From the IMG/VR virus record IMGVR_UViG_3300022538_000960, positions 1 to 64,000 of that record: 64,000 nucleotides of DNA; one strand, 5' to 3'. A model generated the notes under the pieces. It had not been told where the DNA came from. It saw nothing but the letters and a program-made list of their open reading frames with translations, and did no database searches. Positions 9,953 through 64,000 of the stretch are shown here, one piece after another. Positions within the stretch are counted from its first letter, which is position 1; every line of letters starts with the position of its first letter. Source of the DNA: a virus. A program made the position numbers and the translations under genes.

Positions 9953-9953
9953 G

Positions 9954-15419: not shown

Positions 15420-15427
15420 AATTTTTT

Positions 15428-16447: not shown

Positions 16448-16448
16448 A

Positions 16449-17015: not shown

Positions 17016-17016
17016 A

Positions 17017-17916: not shown

Positions 17917-17957
17917 ATTTGATACAGTGAAAGAAGTAAAACTATAAGGAGCTTAGT

Positions 17958-19001: not shown

Positions 19002-19034
19002 TTTTTCCAATGAAACTATAAATTTCAAAGATAT

Positions 19035-19574: not shown

Positions 19575-19581
19575 ATTAGAA

Positions 19582-20424: not shown

Positions 20425-20437
20425 AAAGGAATATTAT

Positions 20438-20908
20438 ATGAAAGAAAGCGTTTTTGCTGGCGAGATGAAACAGAGTTTGTTGCATTATTATCCAGATGCG
20501 ATGTATATCAAGATCCCCGACAGTTTTGGTCAACGGTTCGGAACTGAAAAATTTTTTGATGCATTTTTCTACATCGATGGGCGATTCTTTGCCTTTGAGT
20601 ACAAGCAGCACAAATCGCATAGGGCATTTCCCTTGTCGAAGATAAGACCCATACAAGAAGAATATCTACAGAAAGCAAAGAATAATCGCGGGGTTGCATA
20701 TTTTGTTTTTAATATTAGGTATAAGGAATCAAAGCGGGTTGACGTAGCGATTTTTATAGATATAGACACTTGGAGTATATTGAAACAGGAATTGGGTTCT
20801 AGGAAGTCAATTCCCTTGGATGTCTTAATGGATAATGGCATCACGATCTCATATGAGCGAATTGAGGGGAGAAAAATATGGCAAGTGGACGGGATTATAC
20901 AAGCATAA
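20438..20908 (+). CDS. RecU-like Holliday-junction resolvase
   Basis: Protein of 156 residues with a PD-(D/E)XK nuclease core arranged as in RecU: Asp41 in KFFDAFFY, Glu54 and Lys56 in FAFEYKQHKSHRAFPL, then IRPIQEEYL (where RecU has HQ...L) and RGVAYFVFNI. RecU cuts four-way DNA junctions; phages use such enzymes to clear branched DNA before packaging. AAAAGGAATATT precedes the ATG. Confidence 0.7.
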   Translation: MKESVFAGEMKQSLLHYYPDAMYIKIPDSFGQRFGTEKFFDAFFYIDGRFFAFEYKQHKSHRAFPLSKIRPIQEEYLQKAKNNRGVAYFVFNIRYKESKRVDVAIFIDIDTWSILKQELGSRKSIPLDVLMDNGITISYERIEGRKIWQVDGIIQA

Positions 20909-20964
20909 ATTCTGGAACGGCATATGAGAAAACAAGTTGCGAAAGAAGGTATGATGAGCTATAA
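20878..20964 (+). CDS. Putative micro-gene, 28 aa
   Basis: A 28-codon frame beginning inside the end of the resolvase gene, with GAGGGGAGAAAAAT before its ATG. The product is polar with no motif. It may be an overlapping micro-gene or chance. Confidence 0.2.
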   Translation: MASGRDYTSINSGTAYEKTSCERRYDEL

Positions 20965-20965
20965 C
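20953..20965 (+). promoter_or_regulatory. Weak copy of the promoter-like motif
   Basis: GATGAGCTATAAC matches the core GARCTATAAC of the motif at 4067, 32130 and 47255 but lacks the leading TTT. It precedes the VSR-like nuclease gene by 11 bases. Confidence 0.25.
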
Positions 20966-20975
20966 AACCCTGAAA

Positions 20976-21467
20976 ATGAATGCGCATGTTTGTCCATTAT
21001 GCCTGTCAGACGCGACCGATACTCTGTGTAAGCTATGTAGAACCAAATATTTATTGGATAAAAAATATAAAATATTTAGGAAAAAACTAAATACTACTAG
21101 GACGAAATATAAGACTCAACATTTGCTCTACGAGATTTGTAAATTATTATATGGCACGGCATTCGAAGAAGTTGCATTTCCAAAATGCTACAGTGAGAAG
21201 GGGGCGCTTCTTCGTTTTGATATCTATATTCCAAGTAAAAAACTTCTTATAGAATATCAAGGACAGGCACACTTTGAATACAATAAATTTTTTCATAAAA
21301 CTAAGAAAGAGTTTAGGAAAGCCCAATTACGGGATCTTAGAAAGAAAGTGTTTTGTTCAAAATATGATTATGCATTTTTGGAATTTTTTCCTACTGATAA
21401 AATTTTTGCTCATGAAGTAAAACAAAAAATTGAAGCTATAATAAAAAATGAAAAAAAAGTGGTCTGA
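20976..21467 (+). CDS. VSR-like (EDxHD-type) homing endonuclease
   Basis: Protein of 163 residues. An N-terminal zinc finger (CPLC ... CKLC) is followed by LRFDIYIPSKKLLIEYQGQAHFEYNKFF, the Asp ... Glu-x-x-G-x-x-His arrangement of VSR-like and EDxHD homing nucleases. The C-terminal helix is followed by FLEFF. It is next to an HNH gene, so this is a mobile-nuclease hot spot. Start is ATG with little ribosome binding site. Confidence 0.65.
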   Translation: MNAHVCPLCLSDATDTLCKLCRTKYLLDKKYKIFRKKLNTTRTKYKTQHLLYEICKLLYGTAFEEVAFPKCYSEKGALLRFDIYIPSKKLLIEYQGQAHFEYNKFFHKTKKEFRKAQLRDLRKKVFCSKYDYAFLEFFPTDKIFAHEVKQKIEAIIKNEKKVV

Positions 21468-22023
21468 AAAACACAATCTTGATTCATGCAAAAATTGTGG
21501 AACTAAAGATCAATCGCATCACGCGAAAGGATTATGCAGAAAATGCTATATGCAACAAGATAATATTAAAAAATATTATCGATCATATATGTATGAATAT
21601 AATCGCTCATCTGAAAAAAGTAGAAAATATCAGCGGGAATATAAAAAATTACGCCGGTCTGAAAAATATAAAAGAAACCAAGAACAATATCAAAAAGATT
21701 GGGCAAAATCTCCAATTGGTCGAAGCATCCATCGATTTCATGATCGGAAAAGAAGAGCGAATAAAAAATTAGTAGATTTTTGGACAAGATCAATGGAAGA
21801 TTGTTGGGGATGGATGCTAGATGCAACCGAGGGATATTGCATAAAATGTGGCGATTATTATGGAATAGATAATCTTACTATGGACCACATAGTTCCATTG
21901 ATTCTCGTAGATAAGTTGGGCACCCAAAAAGCAATTGAAATTGGTGCAATTCATCATATTGATAATGTTCAAGTATTATGCAAAAGTTGCAATAGTAAAA
22001 AACATGATGCAAATAATATTTAA
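21448..22023 (+). CDS. HNH homing endonuclease, family B
   Basis: Protein of 191 residues. An N-terminal Cys finger (CKNCGT ... CRKCYM) leads through a long, very basic linker to the HNH core: GYCIKCGDYYG, LTMDHIVPL and GAIHHIDNVQVLCKSCNSKK. A close relative lies at 39795-40430. It overlaps the end of the VSR-like gene and the start of the endolysin gene. Confidence 0.85.
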   Translation: MKKKWSEKHNLDSCKNCGTKDQSHHAKGLCRKCYMQQDNIKKYYRSYMYEYNRSSEKSRKYQREYKKLRRSEKYKRNQEQYQKDWAKSPIGRSIHRFHDRKRRANKKLVDFWTRSMEDCWGWMLDATEGYCIKCGDYYGIDNLTMDHIVPLILVDKLGTQKAIEIGAIHHIDNVQVLCKSCNSKKHDANNI

Positions 22024-47285: not shown

Positions 47286-48605
47286 ATGAATAAATTTCGT
47301 AGTGGAGAAAAATTGTCATCCATTGATATAACCAGTGAACGGAAGTTTGATCTTGATCAAATCCGATTAAAGCAGTTACGTAAGCTGAGAGAATATTACA
47401 CCGAATTTTATTCCGGGCAACAGGTAAAGGTGTATATTAACGATGTTCTTCTTGATTTAGTGGCTATTGCGTGGAATGCTACACAGAATAAGATGCCGGT
47501 GTATGGATTTGCCTCGCAGCTCTTTGATGCCGTTGCCGAAGGAACATTTATTGTCAATGGGGAATTTACATTAGCCTTCAAAGATGTTGCAACAATGCAT
47601 TTCATAAATAGACATATCAAAGGTCAGGAATATGATGCAGAGACTTATGCCGCAAATATTAAAAAACTGCGGGCACTTCCTAGCGCGTCGGTCATACATG
47701 AAATGGGACCGGGTTCCGTTGGACTTACCCCGGTGGTTGCTCAAGTTCAGGAACTTACAATAGATGAAGAAGGGAATGTTGTTCCAGACGGAACCAAGGG
47801 CAAAATATACGTATCAAAAAATCGAGTAGAAGATCTTTTTGGTGGGCCAGATAATTTTGATGATCTATGTGATGCGATGGAGGATTCTATTTGGGGGATC
47901 GGAGACTACTATAAAAATCAATATAAAAGGCCTGACGAAATTGATAAGGAACAGAGATTTGATTCATATGGAATAGGCTATGATGTTGCAGGAAAAGGGT
48001 TTAATTTATTAGTCACATATGGTAATCCAAATAATTCTGAATCTGAACATACATTGAAAACGCTAAATGATGTGCATATCCTGGGTAGTGCCCAATCTAT
48101 AGATCCAAATGCTGGATTCATTATCGAGACATATTCATTCTTTGCTAGGAATATGGATCAGCCCATGTCCAACTATAAGGGATTTGATAAACCGAATATT
48201 CCTACAGACAGAATTGGAAGGAGCCCAACTGTTCTTAATTTTACAGTTCCTCTCACCGCATTTGATCACTGCAATAGGGAATTTTTTGAAGAGCCAACAA
48301 GCATGATTCTGTCAATAAAAGATAAAATTTGGGATTTAAGGAGGGAGGACAAAAATTCAAAAACTTATTTTATAAGGTCGGAAATATTAATTCCAAGTGA
48401 TTGGACCGTTGATAATCCAGAAAATGAAACTAGAATTATTGAAAAAGGCCCCGTTACCAGAAAGAATCTTCTCAATTATTTTGCCAGCAAAATACATGAG
48501 GTTATTAAAGATGCTGCCAGGGCAACTGAGACCACTTTTTCATTCGTTACTAATATTTCATCTTCTCTTAAAACTGAATTTATCATAAATGTGTCGATTG
48601 AGTAA
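47286..48605 (+). CDS. Tail-tube/tube-initiator-like protein (paralogue 3)
   Basis: Protein of 439 residues. Residues 40-110 match tube-type or tube-initiator domains (YSGQQVKVYINDVLLDLVAIAW, KMPVYGFASQLFDAVAEGTFIVNGEFTLAFKD). The C-terminal half contains further beta domains. ATAGGAGC precedes the ATG. It likely joins tube to baseplate. Confidence 0.6.
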   Translation: MNKFRSGEKLSSIDITSERKFDLDQIRLKQLRKLREYYTEFYSGQQVKVYINDVLLDLVAIAWNATQNKMPVYGFASQLFDAVAEGTFIVNGEFTLAFKDVATMHFINRHIKGQEYDAETYAANIKKLRALPSASVIHEMGPGSVGLTPVVAQVQELTIDEEGNVVPDGTKGKIYVSKNRVEDLFGGPDNFDDLCDAMEDSIWGIGDYYKNQYKRPDEIDKEQRFDSYGIGYDVAGKGFNLLVTYGNPNNSESEHTLKTLNDVHILGSAQSIDPNAGFIIETYSFFARNMDQPMSNYKGFDKPNIPTDRIGRSPTVLNFTVPLTAFDHCNREFFEEPTSMILSIKDKIWDLRREDKNSKTYFIRSEILIPSDWTVDNPENETRIIEKGPVTRKNLLNYFASKIHEVIKDAARATETTFSFVTNISSSLKTEFIINVSIE

Positions 48606-49233
48606 AATCGTAGAACTTCAAAGAAAATATACGGATATTTATTTATCAAACTTACGTGGTAAGACCTATATTTTTAGAGATCCTACTTTGGGCGAATGGA
48701 TGAAGCTGGAGAAGTTTGAATTTTCAAAATTGAATGCCAGCGCATACTTGGTCGATACCTTATTGCTTCATCCTTCGAAAGAAAGCCTACTAGCGGGCGA
48801 GATCCTATCATTAGGCAATGAAATTTATAAGGTTGCTTCCAAATTTGCAGATGATAATGTAATTGCTGGAACGTTGGATACGATATCAAAGGACCTGAAT
48901 AGTGGAGATAGTATAGAAAGTGTTATTATGATTATCTGTTCGGCATTTCCATCCTATAAACCCGAAGACATATATGAATTCAATTTTGATAGATTGATGA
49001 CAAGACTAGCTCAAGCTGAAAAAATTCTTTCCCCACCGGAAGTTCCAGGGACTGTTGGAGATGGAACTCCTATTTTGCCGGAACAGGCTTCAGGAATTGC
49101 CAGATCGAAAAATGATTTGCAAATTGCATTGGCAAAACATAGAAGCCAAATAAAGAAACTTACGCCACATAAAGATTCGAAACCTTATCAAGATCTGAAC
49201 ACGAAAAAACCTAATAAGTTAAGGAGGGAATGA
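48589..49233 (+). CDS. Probable tail assembly chaperone
   Basis: Protein of 214 residues, first strands then helical, with a low-complexity acidic/proline middle (LSPPEVPGTVGDGTP). Size and position before the tape-measure-like gene fit tail assembly chaperones. It overlaps the previous gene by 17 bases. No slippery sequence is obvious. Confidence 0.5.
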   Translation: MCRLSKIVELQRKYTDIYLSNLRGKTYIFRDPTLGEWMKLEKFEFSKLNASAYLVDTLLLHPSKESLLAGEILSLGNEIYKVASKFADDNVIAGTLDTISKDLNSGDSIESVIMIICSAFPSYKPEDIYEFNFDRLMTRLAQAEKILSPPEVPGTVGDGTPILPEQASGIARSKNDLQIALAKHRSQIKKLTPHKDSKPYQDLNTKKPNKLRRE

Positions 49234-49234
49234 A

Positions 49235-49483
49235 ATGAGTTGGAAGATATGCCCCGCGTGCAAAGGAAAATGTTATATAATTTGCAAAGATTCGGATGGG
49301 AATGAAATTCCTCATAAATGCCCGGTTTGTGATTCTAAAGGCGAAATTTTTGTTGACGAAGTAAATCCCTACAGATGGTGGAGCCATCCATGCTATCCTT
49401 GTTACCCCATTTCTCCATGCATTGAATCAGATAGTACCGGGAATTGGCCGCCCGATGGCATAATTATTCAATATCAATACTAA
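49235..49483 (+). CDS. DnaJ-type zinc-finger protein, 82 aa
   Basis: Protein of 82 residues with CPACKGKC and CPVCDSKG, the CxxCxGxx pairs of DnaJ zinc fingers, then a Pro/Tyr/Cys-rich tail (HPCYPCYPISPC). AAGGAGGG precedes. Likely binds zinc; it may help tail assembly, by inference from position. Confidence 0.6.
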   Translation: MSWKICPACKGKCYIICKDSDGNEIPHKCPVCDSKGEIFVDEVNPYRWWSHPCYPCYPISPCIESDSTGNWPPDGIIIQYQY

Positions 49484-49499
49484 GGAAGGAAGGTAAATT

Positions 49500-49739
49500 A
49501 TGGATTTCCAAACTGGTGTATATTATTATCATTCAAAAGAAAAAAGAAATTACTTGTGTGTTGAAGTTAATAAAAGTCCGCATTGGGTTGAACCCGAAGA
49601 ACATGCTGCGGATGAAATACTTTATTCATTTAAGAGATGCAAGAAAAATAGTACTGCAATCGAAGATCATATCCCGGTCTATATATCTGATAGGCGATGG
49701 CTTAATCAATTAATTAATCAATTAAAGGAGGTGGAATGA
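49500..49739 (+). CDS. Hypothetical tail-region protein, 79 aa
   Basis: Protein of 79 residues with a beta N-terminus and a helical C-terminus, no known motif. AAGGAAGGT precedes the ATG. Overlaps the next gene by four bases. Confidence 0.55.
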   Translation: MDFQTGVYYYHSKEKRNYLCVEVNKSPHWVEPEEHAADEILYSFKRCKKNSTAIEDHIPVYISDRRWLNQLINQLKEVE

Positions 49740-50143
49740 TGTCTGTGGATCAGAAAGAAGAACAGACAGAATGGACATACCCGTTTACTGCGGAAATGAT
49801 GAATGGCTGGAAAGAAAAATTCAAGGATGTTTTTTGTCTTAAGATTAATGATAAGTTTTATGCTTATAAACCCTTGAGCGTGGGGGAACTTAGGGAACTT
49901 CAAGTTGCCGAGATGAAAACAATCAGAGAGCTGGAGTCAAATAATGAATTAACTGACGATGAAAAAATGACTTTTGTCCAAAGCAAATCGATGGAGCGGA
50001 CGGTCGCCACATGTGTCCTCTGGCCGGAGGATTTTAGTTCGCAATTAGATAGTGTCCCATGTGGAGTCGTTGATAGGTTGAACGCAGAAATATTCAAAGT
50101 TTCCGGTTATGAGGAAGCCACAACTGAGCCGATGAAATTATAA
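49736..50143 (+). CDS. Probable tail assembly chaperone, 135 aa
   Basis: Protein of 135 residues, mainly helical, after AAAGGAGG. It contains YKPLSVGELRELQVAE and a strand-helix end as in small chaperones that sit before tape-measure genes. Followed by a terminator-like hairpin. Confidence 0.5.
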   Translation: MMSVDQKEEQTEWTYPFTAEMMNGWKEKFKDVFCLKINDKFYAYKPLSVGELRELQVAEMKTIRELESNNELTDDEKMTFVQSKSMERTVATCVLWPEDFSSQLDSVPCGVVDRLNAEIFKVSGYEEATTEPMKL

Positions 50144-50185: not shown

Positions 50186-50218
50186 GGCGGGAGGATTTGA
50201 TGATTCCCCCGCCTTTTT
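50186..50218 (+). terminator. Terminator-like hairpin overlapping a start codon
   Basis: GGCGGG and CCCGCC, extended by GGA/TCC with one bulged A, form a stem followed by TTTTT. The stem contains the GGGAGGA ribosome binding site and the loop the ATG (50200) of the next, giant gene. It could end upstream transcripts, mask that start, or both. Confidence 0.65.
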
Positions 50219-53200
50219 CATTAATACTTATGTACCAAGACTATTTTTACGAGCAAAGAGAGAATCTGGATTATAGGGATCGGCAACTACCCAGTCCTTT
50301 GAAAACTATAGGGGCTGGGGCGTTTTCACTCCTGGCTTTTGTGGTCATCAGGGGGGCGGCGGTTCGTGGGTCTTCTGCTGCGAGCAAAGCCCTGTCTCGC
50401 AACTTGGCAAGAGTAGTAAGATCAGTTCAAGCCCCGGCATGGGCTAAATCCTATAGGAATTTAAGAGCTGCGGCGATAAGAAGTGGCCGGGCTGAAGCTA
50501 GGGAATTTGGAGTATTGGCTCCCAAGGATATTGGAATAGCCGCCACGGTAAAAGAAATACCCTTAATTCATAGAGCTCGAGCCAAATTTACAACTACCTT
50601 TGCAAAGCAAATTGAATCCAGGCGGCAGTATTATTATAGGGACTTAGGCTTACGCCAGAAAGAACTGTACGCCGCATTAAAGCATGGCCATCACCCAAAA
50701 TCTCTTGATCAAAGACTCAAGGCTTTAAAAACATTCATGAAACCCGATGGGGCATTTTCTGCCCGTTTCATGGCCGCTGCTGGGAAATGGGGCGAACGAT
50801 ATGCCAAGATGATCCCTGGGTTTTATGTTGCGGATCAAGCATTGGGTCTATTTTCAAAGGCGCGACCAGAACACCTGAAACCAGCATGGTATAATATACC
50901 CGGACATGTCGCTGGGATGGTCAGATTTGGAATCGAATTTGCTCCAATTGATTTAGCATTTAGTGGTGCTTTGCGGGTGCTTAGATATGGCAGAGCCGTA
51001 GCTGCAAGAAGTGCCCAATTGGGCGTCCGCGAATTCCCACACGTAAGAGAGGGATTTACAAAAGCCGTTGAAACCTTGCACATAAAAGGTGCTCAATGGC
51101 ATGCGTCTATTTCTAAGCATTGGGCTACTCGCAGACGTGGAGCATGGCCTTCGATTCAGGAACTCAAACGTGGCATCAGAGATCGCAAGGCTCCGCATTC
51201 AATGGATATTATCAGATTGTATTCTGATATCGTAAAAGATGCCAAAGTCCAGAGGAAACCCTATTTCAAAATGGAGCAGCAACTTACTCAGATCCTAGGT
51301 GTTCTTGGTATGAGGAAGGATCCCACACTGCTCCGCGAAATGTCTAGAAATACTGAAATCAAAAAGGCATTTGATGAAGTTCTTGCAAAATTTGAGAGGC
51401 GACCAAAACAGACATTTATAGAATATGCACTTAAAACTCCGGAGAGGCCGGCGGATTGGGCTCCACGTAGGTTGTCAACTACATCATATATTAAGAGATA
51501 TGCGAAAGAAGCCCAATGGGATCCGGAAACTACAAATAATGCTTTAAAGTTGCTTGGAGGAAAAGAATTATATTATGGCCAAAATATCCTTAGAAAAGGC
51601 AATTTTTCAATGTTCAATGCTAGCTTTGCGGCTGGCAAGGTAATAGATGTAATGGGGAAATGGAAGGTGCCGTTTATTAGCTGGCATCCTTTCAGACGAA
51701 TGATGGTTGCTGGAATTCCCAGAATAGGAATTCCGGGCAAAGGTCCCGCATTCAGAATTCTTGATGAAAAACAATCTGCATTGATGGCTGAGGCTGCAGC
51801 CAATGCCGATCTAAATGTTACTAGGTCTCCGCAACTCAAAGTCGGGGAATATTTCATGAGGATTGGAGATCATCTTTTTAGGCTTAGCCCTGAGAAACTT
51901 ATCGAAAGAGTTTCCGGACATTGGAGAGTCAGCGTTGATACAATTACTGCTGGAGAAAGAAGACATTTCCAAGGTCTGGTTGAAAGTCAGACTGATTATG
52001 AACATACTGGTTGGTTGGGACATCTGCGGCAAAAGTTTGAATTAGGCCGATCTCCTCACTTCATAGGAAAGCGACTTAAAGAATATATTATTCAAGATTT
52101 TAATCCCGAGAGCCCCCACGTATTGATGCATGAAAAAGGGAAATATGTTAATATGCTCAGACATCTCCAAGGCGATAAGATCCTCAGTCCTCGAGAACAG
52201 AAGGAATTTATAAATTATTCAAGAGCGGTGGGTCGCCACTTATATGGATCAGAACAAACGGCTTTAGAAGTCTTTCATAATAATCAAGGTCTCAGAGGGA
52301 AAGTCCTTGATATCTTAGGTGGCGTTGATGCAAAGAAGGCTAAGAAGATTTTAAATGATGCAAATATAGATAGGGTAATTGACGATCTATCCTTATTTGA
52401 CTATGCACTACCAGAAACATATTCCCAAAGAACCATTCAACAAGTTCGCCGAGCACTCCACGATGTCCAAAATCTTACAGGCCCTGATCGAGAATTCCTA
52501 TTAAGATCAAGATCAAGTATTCTTGAACAGTCTAGCAATTTGACCGTGGAAGATTATCTGATGGGGCAGTATTTTAAGAAGACATTGGAAAATTACAGCC
52601 AGGCTGGAAAGATCACGGAAGGCGTCTACGATAAAATTTTCAAATCCATTGATGATACGCTCCTGGCCAAAAGGGAAAAATCTAAGGCAAAATCATTATT
52701 TACTAGTATGAAAATTAATAGGCCTATGTCCGATTATCTGAATGTATATAGTGATCAGGAAGTAATCAATAGTTTGGATACTGTCGGGCATCTTAGGGAT
52801 ATTATTACCCCAAATGAAAGTTTGCTTAGGGAAGTATTTAAATTGGATTATAAGTCTCTTCGGGAATCTATGAAAATAAATAGATTCATGAAGGACACTC
52901 TTGTTCCCCTTGAGATCCAAGGATTTTTGGGACCCATAGATGAGATATGGAGGGTTCAAGGTCATGGAGCTCCAGCTGCTCCAAAGGATCTTTTTGGCGC
53001 CGCCCCAGGATTTGGGGACATGCTTAAAAGCGATTTTAAAAAATTCTTTAGGATTTCTGATTCCGCAACCCAAATAAATTACGAGCCATATGTTACCAAG
53101 CAAAGCATGCTCCTTCATAGATGGGCAATTAGGCCATTCAATATGACATTAGGATGGATTGGTCTGGATTTACATTATAGATCAAACGCTGAATTTATGA

Positions 53201-56200
53201 AAAAATTCTTATGGAAACGCGCTTTGGCTATTCCCGCTGCCATTTATGGTTACCGCGCCCTCGATACCTTCCTGACGGTAAATCCACTCTTAGACCACAC
53301 CATGTTTGATGATGGTTTGACATCCGCTGGGGCGCAGGCAATCGGGAAAGCCAATCTTGCTAGGGCCGAAGTGTTTGACACATTGGGAATAACAGACTTT
53401 GCTCAACATATGGAAGGTCTTATGCCTGGCTCTATGGAATCCCCAGCCGCAAAACTATTTAGGGGTGCCGTCCTTCCACTCTTAGGAAGAAGATTTGGTG
53501 GGGGACCGGGACTTATGATTGGACTAGGAGCCGCGGCTGCAACAGGATTTGGACTCCCAGATCTTACGAGATCTGCGGATGAACTTCGAGATGTTTATTC
53601 TGGACGAAAGCTTTTACCTGTCAGGTCTGGCAGATTTTGGGAGACCTCAAAATTGTCGTATTTTGGAGGAAGAATATCATCATTTCAACCAAGTTGGTAT
53701 ACGAAAATTGTAAGTCAATATAAATACACGGATGCTGCCTTGGGGACTAAATTAGAATCGCTATTATATACTGGTCCTTTGGGTGCAATAACCGATTCGT
53801 ACCACTACGAGCGTGTTCGGTACCACGATAGACCTTATCCCACGACGGCTCCATTGTTTAGCGACATTCCAATAATCGGATCCGTAGCAGATATGACGAT
53901 TGGAAGACTCTTAAAACCCCAGACTATGATGCATGAAGATGAATTAGCTGCTGCCCAGATGGGATTTGATGTGGAGACGAAGAACCGGATTCTGCCGGGA
54001 TATAATAAGAATACAATGCCACCCCTACATGAAGCCCGCCCAGGCTATTTTGCTCCTAGGCATACTGTCCCATCTGTGAGTATGAAGGGAATGTTGGGAG
54101 AGTCATTCTATAGACTTACTGAAGCGGCTGGACTTCGGGGATTTATGACACAAGCAATATTAGGTCGAGAGGGCATCGGTCAATATGCGCCAATATATGA
54201 TGATGCATCTGCAATCACCAGTTTCGGCCGACAATTTTGGGACCTTCAGGCTGGGGGTGGGCTGGCATCGGAAGCCTGGAGAAGATTGTATCCAAGAGAA
54301 AGATTTAAAAATTTGGTAAATCCAATTCGTAATTTGGCTCCGACGTGGTTGCCGGAAGATTTCAAATTCGGAGATCCGTATACAAAAATCAAAGGGGGTT
54401 TGATATTATTACCATCCCGAGCTCATGAGAAACTTTACAAAGTGCGTCATAATTTCCCAGTTGACCTAGAATATTTCGGATACGAACCAGGAGAAGCTGC
54501 TGGGAGGATGCTGAAGCTGATTAGACCAGAGAGAGAAGAGGAATATCATTACTCGTTCATTAAAGAGTTGGTTCAAAAACAATTACTGATGAATAGACAA
54601 TTGCTGAGCAAGGATGTTTTTCAATTTGATCCTTGGAATAAATTGGAGGGAACTGTTGATGCTATAATAATGAATCAATCAGGGAACCCAGAATTGATGC
54701 AGATAAAGGCGACCACTTCTGAAAAGCTTGGATTTATGCAGCAACCGAAGCCCGCGCACGTTGCTCAACTTAATTTTGCCATGAGACAGATGAAACGGAG
54801 ACATGGACAAATACTCTATGTCGCCTCGGATAATCCAGAACTAACTAAATCCTTCTATGTGGAATACAGCTCCGAACGATTTCATAATGACATGGCAAGA
54901 ATGAATGAAGCCCGAGAATTAGCATCGGATATGCTACTCAAGGGAATTGGTCAGGTTGGAGAATCCTATTCTTATCCAGATAGATTGCAGGTGTTGGCAA
55001 ATTCGGCTCCGTGGAGTCCAGAATATAAGAAGGTTTTGAAGCAATGTAAGATGTTAGATAAATTTGGATTGTTGGATGAAGAAGATCGGGTTAAAGTAAA
55101 TGAATCGCGCAGGCAGCACGACGCAATTATGCGGAAGTTTGATTTTTATCCTCATCGATTTAGTCATGGAAAATGGCTTACGCCTGATCCAATTTATAAT
55201 TTGATGTCTCAGAATGTGAATATCAAGGCAGCGGCAGAATATAATGTTGTCGAAAGATTAATGGGAGCGGCATATGAACGACTATTAGAATTTGACATCC
55301 CAGTGGTGCACTCAAAACTGCTACCATATTACACAAGTGAACAAATGTATGAGAGACAGATCGGAGGCAGTTTCAGTGGAAACTGGTCTAGACCCATCCA
55401 TGATTATATAAGACCATGGTGGCATAGCTTCTTATTATCTTCTGGTCCTGCAGAAGCTGCGGCAAAACTTGGATTCGCAGGTGCGCTGTTTGCTGGTCCC
55501 CCCGGCGCCGCCATTGGTGTGAGTGCTGGACTATTATATGGCGGAGGGAGAGCTGTTGCCGGTCGAGGAACTTGGGTCCCAGGAGAAGTTAAGAGAATTC
55601 GGGAAATTGATGAATATTTTGATGCCTTGGAATATATAAAGAATAATCAATTGTATGAACAAACCGGGGATCCGGAATATCTTAAGCGCTCAAGGGAGAC
55701 AATCTATGGGATTACTCCTATGAGCACCCCAGCTGAATTTTATAGAGCAGTGCCGTACATGGAAAGACCATTTTTCTGGTCGTTCGCCTCTATTCAGGAC
55801 AAGGCTCAGCAAAATAGAATTAAACAAAGAGTTTCACCGACTATGAGGACGCTTTTGGAACATTATTGGTCTGGAGATAAGAAATTTACGAATCCCATGA
55901 TAGAGGACTATAATCCAAAATTCCGAATGCCAGCAGAAGATTGGATGGGGTGGAGAGAAGATATTCCTCTGGAAGATATTCAGCTCAAGACCGTTAAGAA
56001 TGAAGGACTTGATAATTTTGACTTTGGATTGGGATGGAAACCACAGGAATTAAGAATGCATAATTCCCCATATGCAATCAAGCCGATAGATATTTCTAGT
56101 CCTTCTGGAGTTCCATATGGTCAGGAAGATTTGGATGCTGGCGACATAAAGAATTTTATTCGAAATGTTTTACAAAGGTATGGCGTAATGAATTCGAATG

Positions 56201-56256
56201 TAACCGTTACAAAATCTCAGGGCAAAGGTGCCCACATATCTTTAAATATTACATAA
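50200..56256 (+). CDS. Giant tape-measure-position protein with embedded PD-(D/E)XK-like domain
   Basis: Protein of 2,018 residues in the tape-measure position. The N-terminus carries a membrane-like segment (GAGAFSLLAFVVIRGAA); other Gly/Ala-rich hydrophobic regions lie near 1,000, 1,110 and 1,750 (FAGALFAGPPGAAIGVSAGLLYGGG). Near 1,480-1,550 is a RecB/Cas4-like nuclease pattern: GTVDAIIM (Asp1487), LMQIKA (Gln1501, Lys1503), then AQLNFAMRQM. The usual acidic residue before Lys is Gln. I take ATG 50200, behind GGGAGGA; an ATG at 50230 is possible. Tape-measure proteins set tail length and are ejected; a nuclease inside one is unusual. It might instead be an inner-core protein. Confidence 0.65.
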   Translation: MIPPPFSLILMYQDYFYEQRENLDYRDRQLPSPLKTIGAGAFSLLAFVVIRGAAVRGSSAASKALSRNLARVVRSVQAPAWAKSYRNLRAAAIRSGRAEAREFGVLAPKDIGIAATVKEIPLIHRARAKFTTTFAKQIESRRQYYYRDLGLRQKELYAALKHGHHPKSLDQRLKALKTFMKPDGAFSARFMAAAGKWGERYAKMIPGFYVADQALGLFSKARPEHLKPAWYNIPGHVAGMVRFGIEFAPIDLAFSGALRVLRYGRAVAARSAQLGVREFPHVREGFTKAVETLHIKGAQWHASISKHWATRRRGAWPSIQELKRGIRDRKAPHSMDIIRLYSDIVKDAKVQRKPYFKMEQQLTQILGVLGMRKDPTLLREMSRNTEIKKAFDEVLAKFERRPKQTFIEYALKTPERPADWAPRRLSTTSYIKRYAKEAQWDPETTNNALKLLGGKELYYGQNILRKGNFSMFNASFAAGKVIDVMGKWKVPFISWHPFRRMMVAGIPRIGIPGKGPAFRILDEKQSALMAEAAANADLNVTRSPQLKVGEYFMRIGDHLFRLSPEKLIERVSGHWRVSVDTITAGERRHFQGLVESQTDYEHTGWLGHLRQKFELGRSPHFIGKRLKEYIIQDFNPESPHVLMHEKGKYVNMLRHLQGDKILSPREQKEFINYSRAVGRHLYGSEQTALEVFHNNQGLRGKVLDILGGVDAKKAKKILNDANIDRVIDDLSLFDYALPETYSQRTIQQVRRALHDVQNLTGPDREFLLRSRSSILEQSSNLTVEDYLMGQYFKKTLENYSQAGKITEGVYDKIFKSIDDTLLAKREKSKAKSLFTSMKINRPMSDYLNVYSDQEVINSLDTVGHLRDIITPNESLLREVFKLDYKSLRESMKINRFMKDTLVPLEIQGFLGPIDEIWRVQGHGAPAAPKDLFGAAPGFGDMLKSDFKKFFRISDSATQINYEPYVTKQSMLLHRWAIRPFNMTLGWIGLDLHYRSNAEFMKKFLWKRALAIPAAIYGYRALDTFLTVNPLLDHTMFDDGLTSAGAQAIGKANLARAEVFDTLGITDFAQHMEGLMPGSMESPAAKLFRGAVLPLLGRRFGGGPGLMIGLGAAAATGFGLPDLTRSADELRDVYSGRKLLPVRSGRFWETSKLSYFGGRISSFQPSWYTKIVSQYKYTDAALGTKLESLLYTGPLGAITDSYHYERVRYHDRPYPTTAPLFSDIPIIGSVADMTIGRLLKPQTMMHEDELAAAQMGFDVETKNRILPGYNKNTMPPLHEARPGYFAPRHTVPSVSMKGMLGESFYRLTEAAGLRGFMTQAILGREGIGQYAPIYDDASAITSFGRQFWDLQAGGGLASEAWRRLYPRERFKNLVNPIRNLAPTWLPEDFKFGDPYTKIKGGLILLPSRAHEKLYKVRHNFPVDLEYFGYEPGEAAGRMLKLIRPEREEEYHYSFIKELVQKQLLMNRQLLSKDVFQFDPWNKLEGTVDAIIMNQSGNPELMQIKATTSEKLGFMQQPKPAHVAQLNFAMRQMKRRHGQILYVASDNPELTKSFYVEYSSERFHNDMARMNEARELASDMLLKGIGQVGESYSYPDRLQVLANSAPWSPEYKKVLKQCKMLDKFGLLDEEDRVKVNESRRQHDAIMRKFDFYPHRFSHGKWLTPDPIYNLMSQNVNIKAAAEYNVVERLMGAAYERLLEFDIPVVHSKLLPYYTSEQMYERQIGGSFSGNWSRPIHDYIRPWWHSFLLSSGPAEAAAKLGFAGALFAGPPGAAIGVSAGLLYGGGRAVAGRGTWVPGEVKRIREIDEYFDALEYIKNNQLYEQTGDPEYLKRSRETIYGITPMSTPAEFYRAVPYMERPFFWSFASIQDKAQQNRIKQRVSPTMRTLLEHYWSGDKKFTNPMIEDYNPKFRMPAEDWMGWREDIPLEDIQLKTVKNEGLDNFDFGLGWKPQELRMHNSPYAIKPIDISSPSGVPYGQEDLDAGDIKNFIRNVLQRYGVMNSNVTVTKSQGKGAHISLNIT

Positions 56257-56265: not shown

Positions 56266-58524
56266 ATGAAAATTTCTGCGATAAACCTGACCGTTAATTC
56301 CATCAAGGTTTTGGAGAGAAGGTATCTTAAGAAGGACAAAAACGGAAAGGTCGACGAAACCCCAGAAGAGCTCTTCTGGAGGGTGGCTGAGGTTATATCT
56401 TCTGCGGATAAGGATTATGGAGCTACCGAATCTGAGATAAAGAAGGCCAAAGAAGAATTCTATGAGATGATGGCAAAGTTGGAATTTATGCCCAACTCCC
56501 CCACCCTGATGAATGCGGGTAGACCTCTGGGCCAGCTCTCCGCCTGCTTTGTCATACCGATCGAAGATACCATGGAATCCATCTTCACTGCGGTGAAGGA
56601 TACTGCCCTGATTCACAAAAGCGGAGGCGGAACCGGATTTTCATTCTCAAGATTAAGACCCAAAAATTCGCCTGTGGCATCCACCAGCGGGGTGGCTTCG
56701 GGTCCCATATCTTTCATGAAAGTTATCAATGCCGCAACTGAAGCGGTCAAGCAGGGAGGGACGCGACGTGGAGCTAACATGGCAATATTGAGGGTGGATC
56801 ATCCGGACATTCTGGAGTTTATCTGTTCCAAGGACGATCTGAAAGAACTTACCAATTTCAATATCTCTGTGGCTGTCACCGATGCCTTCACGAAGGCGAT
56901 GGAAAAGGATAAGTACTACGATTTGATCGATCCCCGCACCGGAAAAGAATACAATTTGAACGATAAACCAGTTCGGTATAGGGCCAAAGAGATCTTCGAC
57001 TTGATCGTGGAACATGCCTGGAGAACCGGTGAACCAGGGATGATGTTTCTGGATAAGATGAATCAGGGCAATCCCATTACCAAAGTTGGATTATATGAAT
57101 CCACCAACCCCTGCGGAGAGCAGCCCCTTTTGCCTTACGAAAGCTGTAACTTAGGATCCATCAATCTCTCCAAGATGCTTAAAGTCAGTGGTCAGTCGTC
57201 AGTGGTCAGTGATCAGACCCCACCCACCACTGTTATGGAGGTGGATTGGGACAAATTGGAAACCACGGTCAAAAAGGCGGTTCATTTTCTGGATAATGTG
57301 ATAGACGCCAACAATCATCCGCTTTCAGAAATTAAAAAGAACACCGAAGCCAATCGGAAAATCGGCTTGGGGGTGATGGGTTGGGCAGATATGTTGGTTC
57401 AGTTAAGGATTCCATATAATTCCACTGAGGCGGTGAAGTTAGCTGATAAGGTGATGGGATTTATCAAAGAAAAATCTCACCAGACTTCGTCTGAATTAGG
57501 AAAAGAAAGGGGCAACTTCCCCAATTGGGAGAAAAGCGTCTATTACGAGAAAAAAATCCCCATGCGCAATTCCACCGTTACCACCATTGCGCCGGCAGGA
57601 ACCATCAGCATCATCGCTGGTTGTTCCTCCGGGATTGAGCCGCTTTTTGCCATCTCCTACATCCGCACGGTGATGGACAACACCAAACTGGTGGAGGTAA
57701 ATCCCTTCTTTGAAGAAGAGGCGAAAAAGAGAGGTTTTGACACCAAGGATTTGATGAAGAAAATTGCCCAGAAGGGATCGATTCAGGATCCCGATTTCAT
57801 CGGGATTCCCGAGGACGTCAAAAAGGTATTTGTGGTTTCTCATGACATAGCACCGGAATGGCACGTGCGAATGCAGGCCGCTTTCCAGAAGTATACGGAC
57901 AATGCAGTTTCCAAGACTATAAACCTCCCCAACCAAGCCACGGTGGGGGACGTGGAGACTGCTTATAGATTAGCATACCAATTGGGTTGTAAGGGGGTGA
58001 CCATCTATCGGGATGGATCCAGAGAGGCACAAGTGTTATCCACCAAAAAGGAAAAAGAAAAAGAGCAGGAGAAAATCGCTCCCATGGAGAGACCGGCTTG
58101 CCTTTCCGGCATAACTGACAAGATTAAAACCGGATACGGGAATCTTTATGTGACCATCAACAGCTTAAATGGAAAGCCTTTTGAGGTTTTTGCCCAGATA
58201 GGAAAATCCGGATATTCCACCATGGCCGACACCGAAGCCATCTGCAGGTTGATCTCCCTGGCGCTTCGGAGCGGGATAAGTGTGGAAAAGACCATCGAGC
58301 AACTGATTGGAATTGGCGGCGCATCTCCCATCTATCAGGAGGGCGGACTGGTCATGTCCATCCCGGATGCCATTGCCAAAGTTTTGAATAAGCATTTTGG
58401 TAATGGCCAAAATGCCAATCACGATATAGATCTTACTATGGAATTCTGTCCCGACTGTGGAGCTAAATTGAATCGTGATTCTGGGTGTATTGTCTGCACT
58501 CAATGTGGATTTTCAAAATGTTAA
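56266..58524 (+). CDS. nrdJ: Class II (B12-dependent) ribonucleoside-diphosphate/triphosphate reductase
   Basis: Protein of 752 residues converting ribonucleotides to deoxyribonucleotides with adenosylcobalamin. Key residues: Cys94 in LSACFVIP, Cys283 and Glu285 in NPCGE, Cys294 in ESCNLGS, and a C-terminal zinc-ribbon-like FCPDCGAKL ... CTQCGFSKC tail that should shuttle electrons. TRRGANMA and a C-terminal vitamin-type segment are normal; I see no ATP-cone. An in-frame insert SGQSSVVSDQ (308-317) comes from a CAGTGGTCAGT-type repeat. Its G+C-richer codons differ from both giant neighbours, so recent uptake from a bacterium is likely. Confidence 0.9.
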   Translation: MKISAINLTVNSIKVLERRYLKKDKNGKVDETPEELFWRVAEVISSADKDYGATESEIKKAKEEFYEMMAKLEFMPNSPTLMNAGRPLGQLSACFVIPIEDTMESIFTAVKDTALIHKSGGGTGFSFSRLRPKNSPVASTSGVASGPISFMKVINAATEAVKQGGTRRGANMAILRVDHPDILEFICSKDDLKELTNFNISVAVTDAFTKAMEKDKYYDLIDPRTGKEYNLNDKPVRYRAKEIFDLIVEHAWRTGEPGMMFLDKMNQGNPITKVGLYESTNPCGEQPLLPYESCNLGSINLSKMLKVSGQSSVVSDQTPPTTVMEVDWDKLETTVKKAVHFLDNVIDANNHPLSEIKKNTEANRKIGLGVMGWADMLVQLRIPYNSTEAVKLADKVMGFIKEKSHQTSSELGKERGNFPNWEKSVYYEKKIPMRNSTVTTIAPAGTISIIAGCSSGIEPLFAISYIRTVMDNTKLVEVNPFFEEEAKKRGFDTKDLMKKIAQKGSIQDPDFIGIPEDVKKVFVVSHDIAPEWHVRMQAAFQKYTDNAVSKTINLPNQATVGDVETAYRLAYQLGCKGVTIYRDGSREAQVLSTKKEKEKEQEKIAPMERPACLSGITDKIKTGYGNLYVTINSLNGKPFEVFAQIGKSGYSTMADTEAICRLISLALRSGISVEKTIEQLIGIGGASPIYQEGGLVMSIPDAIAKVLNKHFGNGQNANHDIDLTMEFCPDCGAKLNRDSGCIVCTQCGFSKC
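57184..57216 (+). repeat. GTCAGTGG short tandem repeat inside nrdJ
   Basis: Four imperfect copies of GTCAGTGG/GTCAGTCG in 33 bases, read in frame as VSGQSSVVSDQ. It interrupts a conserved loop of the reductase between motifs, where no insert is usual. Confidence 0.7.
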
Positions 58525-58536: not shown

Positions 58537-61500
58537 ATGCCAATTATTTATGATCCGGAAGAAGATCAGTTTGTAGATCGGCACGGATATTTATTTCCAA
58601 CTGTCCTATTAGGTGGCGGGTTCCTGGCTTGGAAAAAATATTATGGATCTCCACAGCTTGGAAGGAAATTTTCGCCCCGAGCATTTGTAGGATTTGTTAA
58701 AGATTTAGACCCTCAAGATTATCTAAGGAAATATCTTACAAGACCAGACAAGCCAGAACTCCCTCTCCAACGTAGGTTGGTAGAAACTGCGGTAGAATAT
58801 GAAAAAAGCAAATCAGTAATAGAATTTCTCACCGATGCCGATATGAAAACTATTCACTCAATCGGCTCAGCTCTTCCGACTCCGATGAAAGCGGAAGAGA
58901 TAGAATTCAAGCGGCAGGTAATTAGACAATTTAATCCGGTAACTTATGACTTGGTAAGATCCAATGTGGAAAAAACCCAGGAGGTATTCAACGAGTTGCT
59001 TGAAAATGTTGAAGAATCTAAACATTTACAAAGTGTTCTTAAACAACAGCTTGAACGATATAGATTTAAAAAATCTCGCCTATTGATATATTCGAAATTT
59101 TCTGAAATTATCAGTCCGGAAATGCTGAAGAGCGAAGCTGGACATCCTGTTTTGATGAGACAGCTATGGGATATGCAGAAGAAACAAGTTCAGGAAGCTA
59201 GGAGATTGGCGCAGATATTACAAAATGAAACTCCGGAAACTATAGTAAACTTAAAGATTCCAAAAGTTTTGGAGCGCATTGATCCAACCACTATCATAGA
59301 CGAGAGACGAGCGAGACTCCAACCCGCAGGGAAAACGATTAGTGATACGGGCATCAAGTTATCTTATACAAATTATAAATCATTTCTTCAGGAACTCCGA
59401 AGAGCGAGGGTCGATTCCAAAGCTGTGGCTGCAATCGAATCTATAGACCCATTACTAAGGCAGCATCTAAATGAACTTGCCCATACAAAACCTCGAATTA
59501 CGTATGCCCTTCGCGATAATGCATTCAACTTACAGGCCGTGATTAAATTATCTATTCAAACTAAAGAGGAAGGCAAAAGGGAGATCATTAATCTGAAAAT
59601 TCCTCTTGCTCGTGGTGGGAGATTAAGAATCAATGGGACCGGGTACATCCCTCAGAGATACCGAGGCATTAAGCCGCTTATCCCAGAAATAGAACGAATT
59701 GAATCTGATATCTACGAGTCGGTGATTCGTAATTTGAATAAGAGATTCAAAAGTGAAGTTTGGCATAAAGTTATGGATGGAGATGCCCGTGGAGGTGAAC
59801 GATCCATTAATGCATTGATTAAGGAACCGATTGATGAAAGATTAATCATCGAATCGGGGCGCCCAGTCCATGATTTCATTGAGCAGAATATAATCCAGGA
59901 TGCTAGACTCGGCTATCTGTCGCCTACACGTGGATTCAGAACTGAAGATGAGCGGCGTGTGGTGCTTGATCGATTCAAAAAAATGCAAAAACTTAAATTA
60001 CTTCTATTGGAGGGTGGAGGAAAGTTAAAATTACCAAATAGATATGCATTTATAGATTTTGAAACATTCGGAACAAAAACGAATTACCTGCCGCATCAAG
60101 TGACCGTAGGTATAATTGAAAATGGCGCAGTCGTTGATTGGTATACAGGAAAAATCGATCCTCGAAGCATTAATACCAACTATGCTTTTCCGGAAGTTGA
60201 TTTGAAGTTGTCATTCAAGGGAAAAACGAGAGAACAAGTTATGAAGGAATTCGATGAAATTGGACAACCTATTAGTAAGATTCGGAGAGATTTGGAAGAA
60301 TTCCTGCGGAAAAATGCCAAAGGAGGAAAGCTTCCAGTTGCTGCTTGGAGTGCTGGATTCGATGTGGATCGGGTAATGGGGCAGCAATTCTTGGGGGCCA
60401 AAGCATATTTGGGAGAAACTTGGGATCCGATGGATCTCCAAAAAGCTATTGATCCAGATGTTCAAGCTTCAGTTTCTCTTAGATCCGTTGGGCGATCTCG
60501 TAAAATCTTTGTGCCAACTTCTTCGAAAAAAGATTTGATTCTTAATAAAAAAGTTATTGAATTATTTAAAAAGAATCGCAATTTAATGTCTATCTTGAAG
60601 GACAAAGATCCTGGATTTCATGGTAAGTTAATGAAGGCAGTTTCCGAAAAACAAATAAGGGATCTGGTAATGCACGAGGCATCAATTGATGTACTTGTAG
60701 CAAATAAGGTCTTTCAGGATATTGCGAAAGATATTAATTTGCATTCATCTGTAGTGATGCGTGATTTGAATGCAATGTTATTGTCTTATCATAGAGCCCT
60801 GACCCGCTCAATAAATCCAATAGGTATCAATCACTGGACAACCAGAGCACTGGGATCTAATTTCCCCTCACTTTCTCCAGCTCAAATTTTGCAAGGTAAA
60901 TTTACAAAATTTGATATCAGAGATTTAGCTCCCCTTACTAGGTTAGGCTTAGATCCAACACGGCCATTTTATCAACAATGGGTTTCAGCGCACTTAATTA
61001 CCAAAGATGTTCCCGACTTGATTACGAAAACGTATAAGAAGATTGCTGATAAGCATGGCGAGCTCTTTAAATCGATAGATACATTAACAATTTTTAATCC
61101 ATTAACTGCAGAAAGTGCAGGCCTAATAGATTTTCAGGCTGCGGATGAAATGGCAATTAAAATGGGGACAAAAGAGATTAGAATTCCGCATACGGGCAAA
61201 TTGAAGCTCATACCCGAACTCAGAGAATATTTTGAACAAATAAAATCAACAAGGAGTCCGAGAGAGCGTGAAATAGTTTTATCTAAATTAAGACAGAAAA
61301 TGGCGAAGTCATATCAAAAGGGATCTCATTTCCAGGAATGGTTGCCTGGGTATACCTTACTTGGAGAAGCAGAAGGATTTACATTTAATACCTCGACTCC
61401 ATTGATGTCAACAATCGAGAACATTGAATACAATAATGAGAACAAGGAAATAGCCATTCGTCTCCAGACGGCGAGCCGTCCTGAAAAGTATGGGCATCCA

Positions 61501-64000
61501 ATGAAAGTTTTTGCCCGTGAACATAAGGGGATGTTGACCCCTGTAGAGGGACTGAGATCCATTACATGGGTTGATGCGGTTCTTCGTAAAGATCTTGTAA
61601 AACGCGGTAGGATGTCATTTATGTTGGGGCAAATTCAGAGATTAACCAGGAATTTTCAAGCAATTCATTCGAAATTAACCCCAGCTCAGACATTTCAATT
61701 TTTCGAAACAGTTAAGACTTTTGTAAGTAAGATAAACTCGATGGGGGGAATTAAATTAGATTGGCAAGTTAACCGAGGCAAACTTCAATTTATAGATGAA
61801 ATAACAGGTAAAGAGTGGCAAAAATTGGATCTTGGGAAAATCGAAAAAAACTGGTTGCAATTTTCCGAAGGTGGATGGGTTAAATTCATGAAAGAATATT
61901 CCCAAAAGATCCGGCATATGATGATTTCGTTTGGAGTTAAATATTCTAGGCATGATCCTCGCCTGCCCTATTGGACTCAGGGCCAAATTGAATCGATGTT
62001 ATCGACTGAGTGGGGTCGACGATTCCCCAAAAAGTTAGTGTTTGCTGATCTGTCCCGGGCTGAACAAAATGCATTCCGAGAGAAAATAGAGGTAGAAATG
62101 CATGATCAGCTATCAAAAAGTGAATTATCCAAGTTTTTTACCAAAGCAGAATTAGAGCGATGGAAATCCGGAACCTTAATGAAAGGTCATCTTTCTTTGA
62201 TTCAGCTCTTTGGTGGTTCTTGGGGGGTTTTAGAAGTTACCCCAGCATCGAGGGCATATGAGGCCGGCGAATTATACGCAAAGGGAACCGATGTTGCAAT
62301 TCCTCGTCTAAGTGAATTAGTTATATCAGGACCAGTTGGACAAAGATTGGCGCGATCATTTACCCCCCAGCAACGTGATATGATGAATTATATGTCAAAC
62401 ATTCAACCCCTTTTAAGATATGGTGTTTTGCCGGAATCCCATTATCCGATTGTAAAAGCTTCGGAAATAAATCTTGACCCTATGACAACTCACTTGGGAT
62501 TTAAGCAAGAAGTTGGGATTATAGAAGATAAATCCTTCAGAATTAAGTGTGTTGAAACTGGAGAAATTTTTAATTCTCTCGAAGAAGTTCCTGGCCGTTA
62601 TTTGAAACAATATACACTGAGGCCCATGGGCATGAATGCCTATATGCATCCTAAAACTTTGGAATCATTGTACGGACAGCAGCCAACCATAGCAGAATTT
62701 AATATAGGGAAGAAGACAGTTTATGTTCCCAGACCAGCATTATCATTTATTCGGGGTGCCCCAGCGAAAGTTACAAAGAGTGGGGACCCTTATACAATAG
62801 TTGGGAAGGAAATCCAAACATTTAAAAACCTCTTTGTGATGGCTGCCGATTATAAGTTAATCGAAGATAAAGAGGCGAAGAAACTTGCCGAACGGGAATT
62901 TTTTGCAAGAGTTGAAGATTATAGAAATATGTTATTGACCGATAAGTCCGCCTATATAAAACTTACCAAGCCGACTATTCCAGGAGTACAAGGTAAAATT
63001 TCCATGGCATTCCCTCCAGGAATGGCCAAGGCATTGGGATTGCCGCAGGATATGTTCGCTCATATAACTACGGGATTTGGAGTCCAGGGTGTGTCCATGG
63101 AGTCGATTGGAGAGGAGTATTTTAATAAGGCCATGGATGCTCACCAGATAAAAATCGGGCCAGACACCGGAAAATTTAGGGGTGGCACAGGATCGATTTA
63201 TCCAAATAAATTGGCATTTAGAGAGTCCCTTAGTAAAGGCGAGGAACTGCTGGCTGGGACCCTTATTCGAATCCCACCAGAAAGTAAATTCGCAGCTTTT
63301 GATACGTTAATTGACGTCAGAAGGGATCAAGCCGCTGGGATGCGTCTTCAGCTTAGAGAGGCTATGATGGCCCATTTCGATTTTGACGGGGATATTGCGC
63401 CACTAGGATTTGCGAATCTTACACCGGAAGACCAGGAGCAGGTTTTGAAGGATCTTGTGAATAAGCAACATATTGATCGCGAGGCACATAAAACATTAGC
63501 TGAAAGAATAAAAAAGTTGCATGCCAATGTTCTTGAATATGAAACCAGCAAAGATGCTGCAACCAAGAAGCAACTTGTCAAAGAGCTTGAGCAAATTCAA
63601 GAACTCGAAAAGACAATGAATGTCAATGTCTATGGCCAGGGTATTTGGGTGAGGGAAGCCAAGCCGGGAGTAACTCCAAAGGAAATTAAATTAGGAGTTG
63701 GCGATGAGATGAGGTTCCGGAAGATGAATTTGCACCAGTTTATGAAGGGATTACCATCTATTGATCTTCCAGGAAAGTTGATTAGCCTTCCGGGTGAAGA
63801 ATTGGAGCTACATCTTTCTAATATGCTTACAAAGACGGCTACAGCGTATTCTTATCGAGAAACAATGAGAATGAGAGCGTCCGGCAGATTATTTGGCGGA
63901 AAGTTGACCCAACAATACTTGGATTTGTATGATCAACTGGTTGGGAAAGTTACCGCATTCAAAAAAATTCCGCTTGCGGATGCAGAGGCTTTGACTCGGG
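58537..64000 (+). CDS. Giant protein: DEDDh exonuclease plus RNA-polymerase-like DFDGD domain (3' end outside window)
   Basis: Open frame of at least 1,821 residues, starting ATG 58537, 12 bases after nrdJ, running off the window. Near the N-terminus is a Gly-rich hydrophobic patch (FPTVLLGGGFLAW). Residues 500-720 show a DnaQ-type exonuclease: Asp507-x-Glu509 in AFIDFETFG, Asp609 in SAGFDVDRV, His713 and Asp718 in HEASID. Around 1,580-1,620 TLIRIPPES precedes AHFDFDGDIA (Asp1615/1617/1619), the catalytic three-Asp motif of the beta-prime double-psi barrel in cellular, YonO and crAss-like RNA polymerases. I infer a single-chain, possibly virion-packaged RNA polymerase with a fused proofreading-like or DNA-trimming exonuclease. 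The downstream bridge helix and trigger loop would lie partly outside. Confidence 0.6.
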   Translation, partial: MPIIYDPEEDQFVDRHGYLFPTVLLGGGFLAWKKYYGSPQLGRKFSPRAFVGFVKDLDPQDYLRKYLTRPDKPELPLQRRLVETAVEYEKSKSVIEFLTDADMKTIHSIGSALPTPMKAEEIEFKRQVIRQFNPVTYDLVRSNVEKTQEVFNELLENVEESKHLQSVLKQQLERYRFKKSRLLIYSKFSEIISPEMLKSEAGHPVLMRQLWDMQKKQVQEARRLAQILQNETPETIVNLKIPKVLERIDPTTIIDERRARLQPAGKTISDTGIKLSYTNYKSFLQELRRARVDSKAVAAIESIDPLLRQHLNELAHTKPRITYALRDNAFNLQAVIKLSIQTKEEGKREIINLKIPLARGGRLRINGTGYIPQRYRGIKPLIPEIERIESDIYESVIRNLNKRFKSEVWHKVMDGDARGGERSINALIKEPIDERLIIESGRPVHDFIEQNIIQDARLGYLSPTRGFRTEDERRVVLDRFKKMQKLKLLLLEGGGKLKLPNRYAFIDFETFGTKTNYLPHQVTVGIIENGAVVDWYTGKIDPRSINTNYAFPEVDLKLSFKGKTREQVMKEFDEIGQPISKIRRDLEEFLRKNAKGGKLPVAAWSAGFDVDRVMGQQFLGAKAYLGETWDPMDLQKAIDPDVQASVSLRSVGRSRKIFVPTSSKKDLILNKKVIELFKKNRNLMSILKDKDPGFHGKLMKAVSEKQIRDLVMHEASIDVLVANKVFQDIAKDINLHSSVVMRDLNAMLLSYHRALTRSINPIGINHWTTRALGSNFPSLSPAQILQGKFTKFDIRDLAPLTRLGLDPTRPFYQQWVSAHLITKDVPDLITKTYKKIADKHGELFKSIDTLTIFNPLTAESAGLIDFQAADEMAIKMGTKEIRIPHTGKLKLIPELREYFEQIKSTRSPREREIVLSKLRQKMAKSYQKGSHFQEWLPGYTLLGEAEGFTFNTSTPLMSTIENIEYNNENKEIAIRLQTASRPEKYGHPMKVFAREHKGMLTPVEGLRSITWVDAVLRKDLVKRGRMSFMLGQIQRLTRNFQAIHSKLTPAQTFQFFETVKTFVSKINSMGGIKLDWQVNRGKLQFIDEITGKEWQKLDLGKIEKNWLQFSEGGWVKFMKEYSQKIRHMMISFGVKYSRHDPRLPYWTQGQIESMLSTEWGRRFPKKLVFADLSRAEQNAFREKIEVEMHDQLSKSELSKFFTKAELERWKSGTLMKGHLSLIQLFGGSWGVLEVTPASRAYEAGELYAKGTDVAIPRLSELVISGPVGQRLARSFTPQQRDMMNYMSNIQPLLRYGVLPESHYPIVKASEINLDPMTTHLGFKQEVGIIEDKSFRIKCVETGEIFNSLEEVPGRYLKQYTLRPMGMNAYMHPKTLESLYGQQPTIAEFNIGKKTVYVPRPALSFIRGAPAKVTKSGDPYTIVGKEIQTFKNLFVMAADYKLIEDKEAKKLAEREFFARVEDYRNMLLTDKSAYIKLTKPTIPGVQGKISMAFPPGMAKALGLPQDMFAHITTGFGVQGVSMESIGEEYFNKAMDAHQIKIGPDTGKFRGGTGSIYPNKLAFRESLSKGEELLAGTLIRIPPESKFAAFDTLIDVRRDQAAGMRLQLREAMMAHFDFDGDIAPLGFANLTPEDQEQVLKDLVNKQHIDREAHKTLAERIKKLHANVLEYETSKDAATKKQLVKELEQIQELEKTMNVNVYGQGIWVREAKPGVTPKEIKLGVGDEMRFRKMNLHQFMKGLPSIDLPGKLISLPGEELELHLSNMLTKTATAYSYRETMRMRASGRLFGGKLTQQYLDLYDQLVGKVTAFKKIPLADAEALTR

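Follow-up and report, generated by a model that had tools for sequence, protein, structure and literature searches.

Genomic context of the giant gene

The window analysed here comprises the first 64,000 nucleotides of the 98,001-bp IMG/VR record IMGVR_UViG_3300022538_000960. A contractile-tailed phage is indicated by its genes for sheath, portal, terminase and baseplate and by its chaperone-like genes. The genes and motifs of the tail module described below all lie on the + strand. A tail sheath gene at 42445–45162 was identified through its match to the PHROG tail sheath family (E = 1e-51). Two small genes at 48589–50143, with weak PHROG matches, occupy the position of tail assembly chaperones, and counterparts at this position are annotated as tail chaperonin in Acinetobacter phage ME3 and in Cytobacillus. 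Downstream lie a giant tail gene of 2,019 aa that accompanies the gene under study, in conserved synteny, in all relatives (50197–56256), a ribonucleotide reductase gene (56266–58524) and the giant gene under study (58537–64000), which encodes a DEDDh exonuclease together with a two-barrel RNA polymerase (RNAP)-like core. The close relatives L005 and L006 have no ribonucleotide reductase gene between the two giants, and that of the window was recently inserted into this structural module.

The frame of the giant gene is open from a GTG at 58528 and an ATG at 58537 through the end of the window, and its stop was located at position 64581 of the parent record, giving a protein of 2,014 aa counted from the ATG. 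As the counterparts in L005 and L006 begin exactly at this ATG (MPIIYD...), 58537 is the likely start. The original prediction, made from the window alone, had described one long open frame with DnaQ-type motifs and a DFDGD motif; these were recovered where it had placed them and its numbering from the ATG was correct. Residue numbers are given here in GTG numbering, that is, ATG numbering plus three, in which the residues in question are D510/E512, D612, H716/D721 and the DFDGD at 1618–1622.

The giant neighbours matched genes of Moorella phage MTATph1, Bacillus phage KLEB27-3 and phage ME3, and the annotation of ME3 draws on its homology to Bacillus phage 0305phi8-36. The window comes from a member of the 0305phi8-36-like lineage of jumbo myoviruses. 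The gene order chaperone, giant, exonuclease/RNAP-like gene, hub is kept in this lineage. In it the exonuclease/RNAP-like gene comes after the tail chaperones and immediately precedes the hub gene, which is the position of a tape measure or virion protein. In 0305phi8-36 the gene at this position, immediately preceding the hub gene orf147, is orf146, which was assigned as the tape measure based on position and tail-length correlation and was not recognised as a polymerase (PMC2147016); the two genes are likened here by genomic position. A homologue of the giant gene, gp034 of KLEB27-3, is labelled a structural protein in its annotation. The tail-module position and this annotation support the earlier proposal that the protein is probably located in the virion.

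Syntenic counterparts were found between the neighbouring giant gene and the baseplate hub gene in roughly a dozen diverse phages and phage-plasmids. IMG/VR members were gathered with a degenerate DNA pattern derived from the neighbouring giant gene and the set was extended by protein searches; it also includes jumbo plasmids of Cytobacillus, Bacillus velezensis and Paenibacillus. Well-resolved counterparts span 1,480–2,453 codons. Nothing matched when the sequence of the window protein was searched against annotated phages and the PDB, and alignment-driven scans plus two genome scans returned no additional relatives.

Further observations were made on the family and the window. The exonuclease/RNAP-like gene is carried by L112 and by the plasmids NZ_CP065512, NZ_AP024502 and NZ_CP118109 (215–240 kb; Cytobacillus, Bacillus velezensis and Paenibacillus). 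Since the Cytobacillus plasmid also carries the neighbouring tail module, these plasmids look like unrecognised jumbo phage-plasmids. The neighbouring giant protein has a PD-(D/E)XK/Cas4-like nuclease signature at residues ~1477–1578 (PHROG 1706, E = 3e-7), so that a nuclease would be present in both giants of the tail module. Inteins, called by Pfam Intein_splicing and LAGLIDADG, were detected in the counterparts of this neighbour in L006 (about four; 132-10001) and L005 (one, at a different site; 2793-10001), and none was detected in the window copy at 50197–56256. At 8406–22000 the window contains a long co-directional block with matches to a nucleotide-sugar epimerase, an aminotransferase and a GtrB-like glycosyltransferase, which suggests phage-encoded sugar or surface modification.

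Predicted exonuclease domain

Residues ~505–740 (60040–60747) make up a predicted 3'-5' exonuclease domain of the DEDDh type (DnaQ/RNase T superfamily). The Exo I motif D510-x-E512 lies at 60055–60063, the Exo II Asp612, in the context W-S-A-G-F-D, at 60361–60363 and the Exo III motif H716-E-A-S-I-D721 at 60673–60690. This is the DxE, D, HxAxxD arrangement of DnaQ/RNase T and Rv2179c exonucleases, to which the Pfam match of the window domain was weak (Rv2179c-like, E = 3e-4, 21 bits against a cutoff of 27). The MTATph1 counterpart scored above the Pfam RNase_T cutoff (26.1 against 24). Both DxE and HxA/GxxD were invariant in all 11 exonuclease-bearing members, MTATph1 included, and the conservation of the catalytic residues bears out the built-in DEDDh exonuclease of the original prediction at the level of sequence. 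The domain is absent from three short members (L107, L095 and ME3) and thus appears to be a widespread but dispensable partner. The MTATph1 counterpart (L009:15513-22869) is split by an IS21-like IstA/IstB pair, with the polymerase region lost and the exonuclease part kept. As its gene is split by this element, MTATph1 was rejected as evidence for a member lacking the polymerase by design.

Probable polymerase core

The motif D1618-F-D-G-D1622 is encoded at 63379–63393, within a region homologous to DPBB-A, the Mg-binding double-psi barrel (residues 1515–1651; 63070–63480). Upstream, at 63268–63276, lies R1581-x-P1583, the counterpart of N-R-x-P-T-L-H in the RNAP beta' subunit. A D-x-D-G-D motif is expected by chance ~0.014 times per protein of the same length and composition, so that its presence by itself is suggestive and the weight is carried by its conservation. 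The original prediction had hinged on such conservation among relatives, and the segment was found in register across homologues of ~20% identity, with R-x-P 35–40 residues upstream. All distant homologues in synteny that still have the region carry DxDGD or one of the variants DHDDD and DHDQD. Where the window has DFDGD, L005 and L006 have DYDGD with differing flanking residues. DYDGD also occurs in KLEB27-3, L073, L096 and L107, DFDGD in L101, DSDGD in L094 and L098, DNDGD in L099, DHDDD in L095 and DHDQD in ME3.

An alignment of the core from 11 sequences, with 13–26% identity between branches, contained only seven invariant columns (E230, R575, P577, D612, D614, G615 and D616 in alignment numbering), and a repeat gave the same set. 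Six of these form R-x-P and D-x-D-G-D and the remaining one is a glutamate. The combination of R-x-P and D-x-D-G-D is the signature of the Mg-binding barrel in two-barrel RNA polymerases. The segment is flanked by a GxVYxS-like strand, and most members share conserved G..IG..[SD]N and [EQ]-x-x-IS-x-K elements downstream of the motif. The L099 segment IVGRYPTEGLRSIEPTWLRV...AIQVTVGDAVAYAADNDGDFMSTLLAHF was set beside E. coli beta'. A conserved lysine pair for the second barrel, DPBB-B, was sought in the core alignments and none could be assigned; the bridge helix and trigger loop were likewise unplaced.

The conservation pattern bears on the possibility that the protein is a tape measure in which polymerase and nuclease domains are decayed or structurally reused, with a structural role only. 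The tape-measure assignment of the 0305phi8-36 counterpart (PMC2147016) fits such a role, as do the fast divergence of the overall sequence, the lack of the exonuclease in three short members and the DHDDD and DHDQD forms of the motif in two. Against it, no positions of either domain are better conserved than the catalytic residues, at an overall identity of ~20%, which argues for retained catalysis, and we consider a purely structural protein improbable.

The assignment of the DPBB-A segment was evaluated further by profile and structure comparisons. A profile of the segment matched 91 PDB sequences at E≤10 (best E = 0.0029) and, among the best 60 of these 91, 59 were RNAP largest subunits. 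Pfam RNA_pol_Rpb1_2 matched the segment (E = 8e-4) and L073 (E = 0.0022), in both cases below its cutoff. A profile of the whole core gave a single PDB match, to the PHIKZ055 subunit of the PhiKZ nvRNAP at the same site (E = 0.083). When full-length profiles of the window trio and of the Bacillus-lineage family were compared without restriction, the best local match fell on the DPBB-A site, in register (P = 2.4e-4); the neighbouring giant gene, used as a control, gave no match. The best profile alignment of the family to the phi14:2 RNAP (6VR4) was likewise at DPBB-A, in register. By these comparisons the segment of the window gene is homologous to DPBB-A of RNAPs. When the five motif columns were masked, the segment profile returned no PDB matches, and the sequence signal accordingly rests on the motif and R-x-P. 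Pfam found nothing in gp96 of P23-45 or in the phi14:2 enzyme, both proven RNAPs, and weak scores from family libraries are therefore expected for such enzymes. A full-length alignment of the family to E. coli beta' was best at residues 1015–1137 (above 40 shuffles), outside DPBB-A; it was dropped as support and weighs against the assignment.

AlphaFold models of both cores, made without templates, were poor (pLDDT 37 and 44). Nearly all of the top 50 Foldseek matches of the low-confidence L073 core model were RNAP beta' chains, with a best E of 6e-3, none at E≤0.001 and a probability of 0.93 for 7ogp_A; in a viral Foldseek library a phage RNAP subunit ranked fifth, with a probability of 0.96. 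For the low-confidence model built from the branch to which the window belongs, Foldseek returned no RNAP.

This last result, together with the lack of matches for the masked profile, would fit an exonuclease that is real and a DFDGD segment that belongs to a different metal-binding domain, with no polymerase present. The spacing of R-x-P, the GxVYxS-like strand, the Pfam Rpb1_2 match and the Foldseek results for L073 speak against such a domain, and we regard it as very improbable. A two-barrel DNA polymerase with proofreading, following PolD-like logic and serving for example to prime entering DNA or to fill its gaps, is suggested by the proofreading-type DEDDh domain on the same chain and by the use of the two-barrel fold in archaeal PolD (PMC4996933). 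The signature found here, however, keeps the three aspartates of RNAPs; for PolD, the description is of a relaxed motif with two invariant catalytic aspartates (PMC4996933). The profile and fold matches were moreover to RNAPs. To our knowledge, the phage two-barrel enzymes known from virions are all RNAPs, and a DNA polymerase is the least probable of the explanations considered. The motif, R-x-P and their conservation in register instead favour the earlier claim that the phage carries a polymerase of its own, most plausibly an RNAP.

A separate PF05183-type RNAP in the lineage

A separate two-barrel RNAP of the PF05183 (YonO/QDE-1) type was found elsewhere in five records of the lineage (G004, G006, G013, G014 and W04), in frames of ~1,165–1,467 aa. 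The record containing the window, which is possibly incomplete, showed no second RNAP. The separate enzyme corresponds to orf99 of 0305phi8-36 (PMC2147016) and to the non-virion RNAP of P23-45 (PMC10770324). A survey of jumbo phages gives only the YonO-like enzyme for 0305phi8-36 (PMC7824862). PF05183 gave no match to the window giant gene or its counterparts, and membership of the giant gene in this family was rejected. YonO, orf99 and QDE-1-type RNAPs are also single-chain two-barrel enzymes with DxDGD and are set apart by PF05183.

Discussion

YonO had originally been put forward as a precedent for the giant gene. PF05183 gives no match to the gene, and the nearest precedent, both by where it is encoded and by its chemistry, is the tape-measure-fused RNAP gp96 of the Thermus phage P23-45 (PMC10770324). 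Both are single-chain two-barrel RNAPs or candidates with DFDGD, a tape-measure position and R-x-P ahead of the motif. P23-45 is a siphovirus whose gp96, of 5,002 aa, has the RNAP in its N-terminal part and also contains a metallopeptidase; the window lineage, in contrast, has a contractile tail and a core that is C-terminal in a gene of 1,480–2,453 codons, preceded in the exonuclease-bearing members by the DEDDh domain. No peptidase match was found in the window giant protein and no exonuclease was found by Pfam in residues 1-1500 of gp96, and there was no significant sequence similarity between gp96 and the giant-gene family outside the motif region. The virion RNAP of crAss-like phage phi14:2 (PDB 6VR4) is also giant with a two-barrel core but differs in having a DFDID motif, in belonging to Crassvirales and in carrying no exonuclease by Pfam.

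The original prediction knew of no described polymerase with such a fusion. The literature searches likewise turned up no DEDDh exonuclease fused to a two-barrel RNAP, with the reservation that the supplementary survey of PMC10770324 may list some such genes. No earlier report of a tail-gene polymerase was found in the moraphage paper. The giant gene is best read as an analogue of P23-45 gp96 that occurs in jumbo phages with contractile tails and whose domain partner is new.

From its sequence and position, the giant gene probably encodes a virion RNAP, tail-associated and likely ejected, that is single-chain and two-barrelled and has a DEDDh 3'-5' exonuclease N-terminal to the core. Its packaging into the virion, RNA synthesis, second barrel and exonuclease target are what we infer in making this assignment. 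Packed in or on the tail, the protein would accompany the genome's leading end into the cell or an envelope pore and transcribe pre-early genes before the host RNAP or a second phage RNAP takes over. The exonuclease may act in cis on 3' ends, most likely those of nascent or backtracked RNA, or alternatively on host, defence or incoming nucleic acid; with both domains on one chain, the favoured role is to rescue or edit the RNA that the enzyme itself makes. That the tape measure itself is the virion RNAP, with the in-chain DnaQ-type 3'-5' exonuclease editing its own transcripts during genome ejection, is a tentative and rather doubtful proposal. P23-45 has a virion RNAP and a second, non-virion RNAP (PMC10770324). 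In the simplest scheme for the window lineage, the giant enzyme would likewise serve pre-early genes during entry and the PF05183-type RNAP later ones.

The assignment of the giant gene as a probable virion RNAP suggests that viruses of this lineage may inject their own transcription machine along with their DNA. The association of RNAP with the tape measure, discovered recently in a single small group of Thermus siphoviruses, would extend to a broad lineage of contractile-tailed jumbo phages and phage-plasmids. The DEDDh exonuclease would be an added partner domain, for which the literature searches returned no precedent in any RNA polymerase. A function is thereby offered for a giant gene that has been called hypothetical or tape measure since 2007, and KLEB27-3, ME3 and other isolated members would allow early, host-independent transcription to be tested directly.
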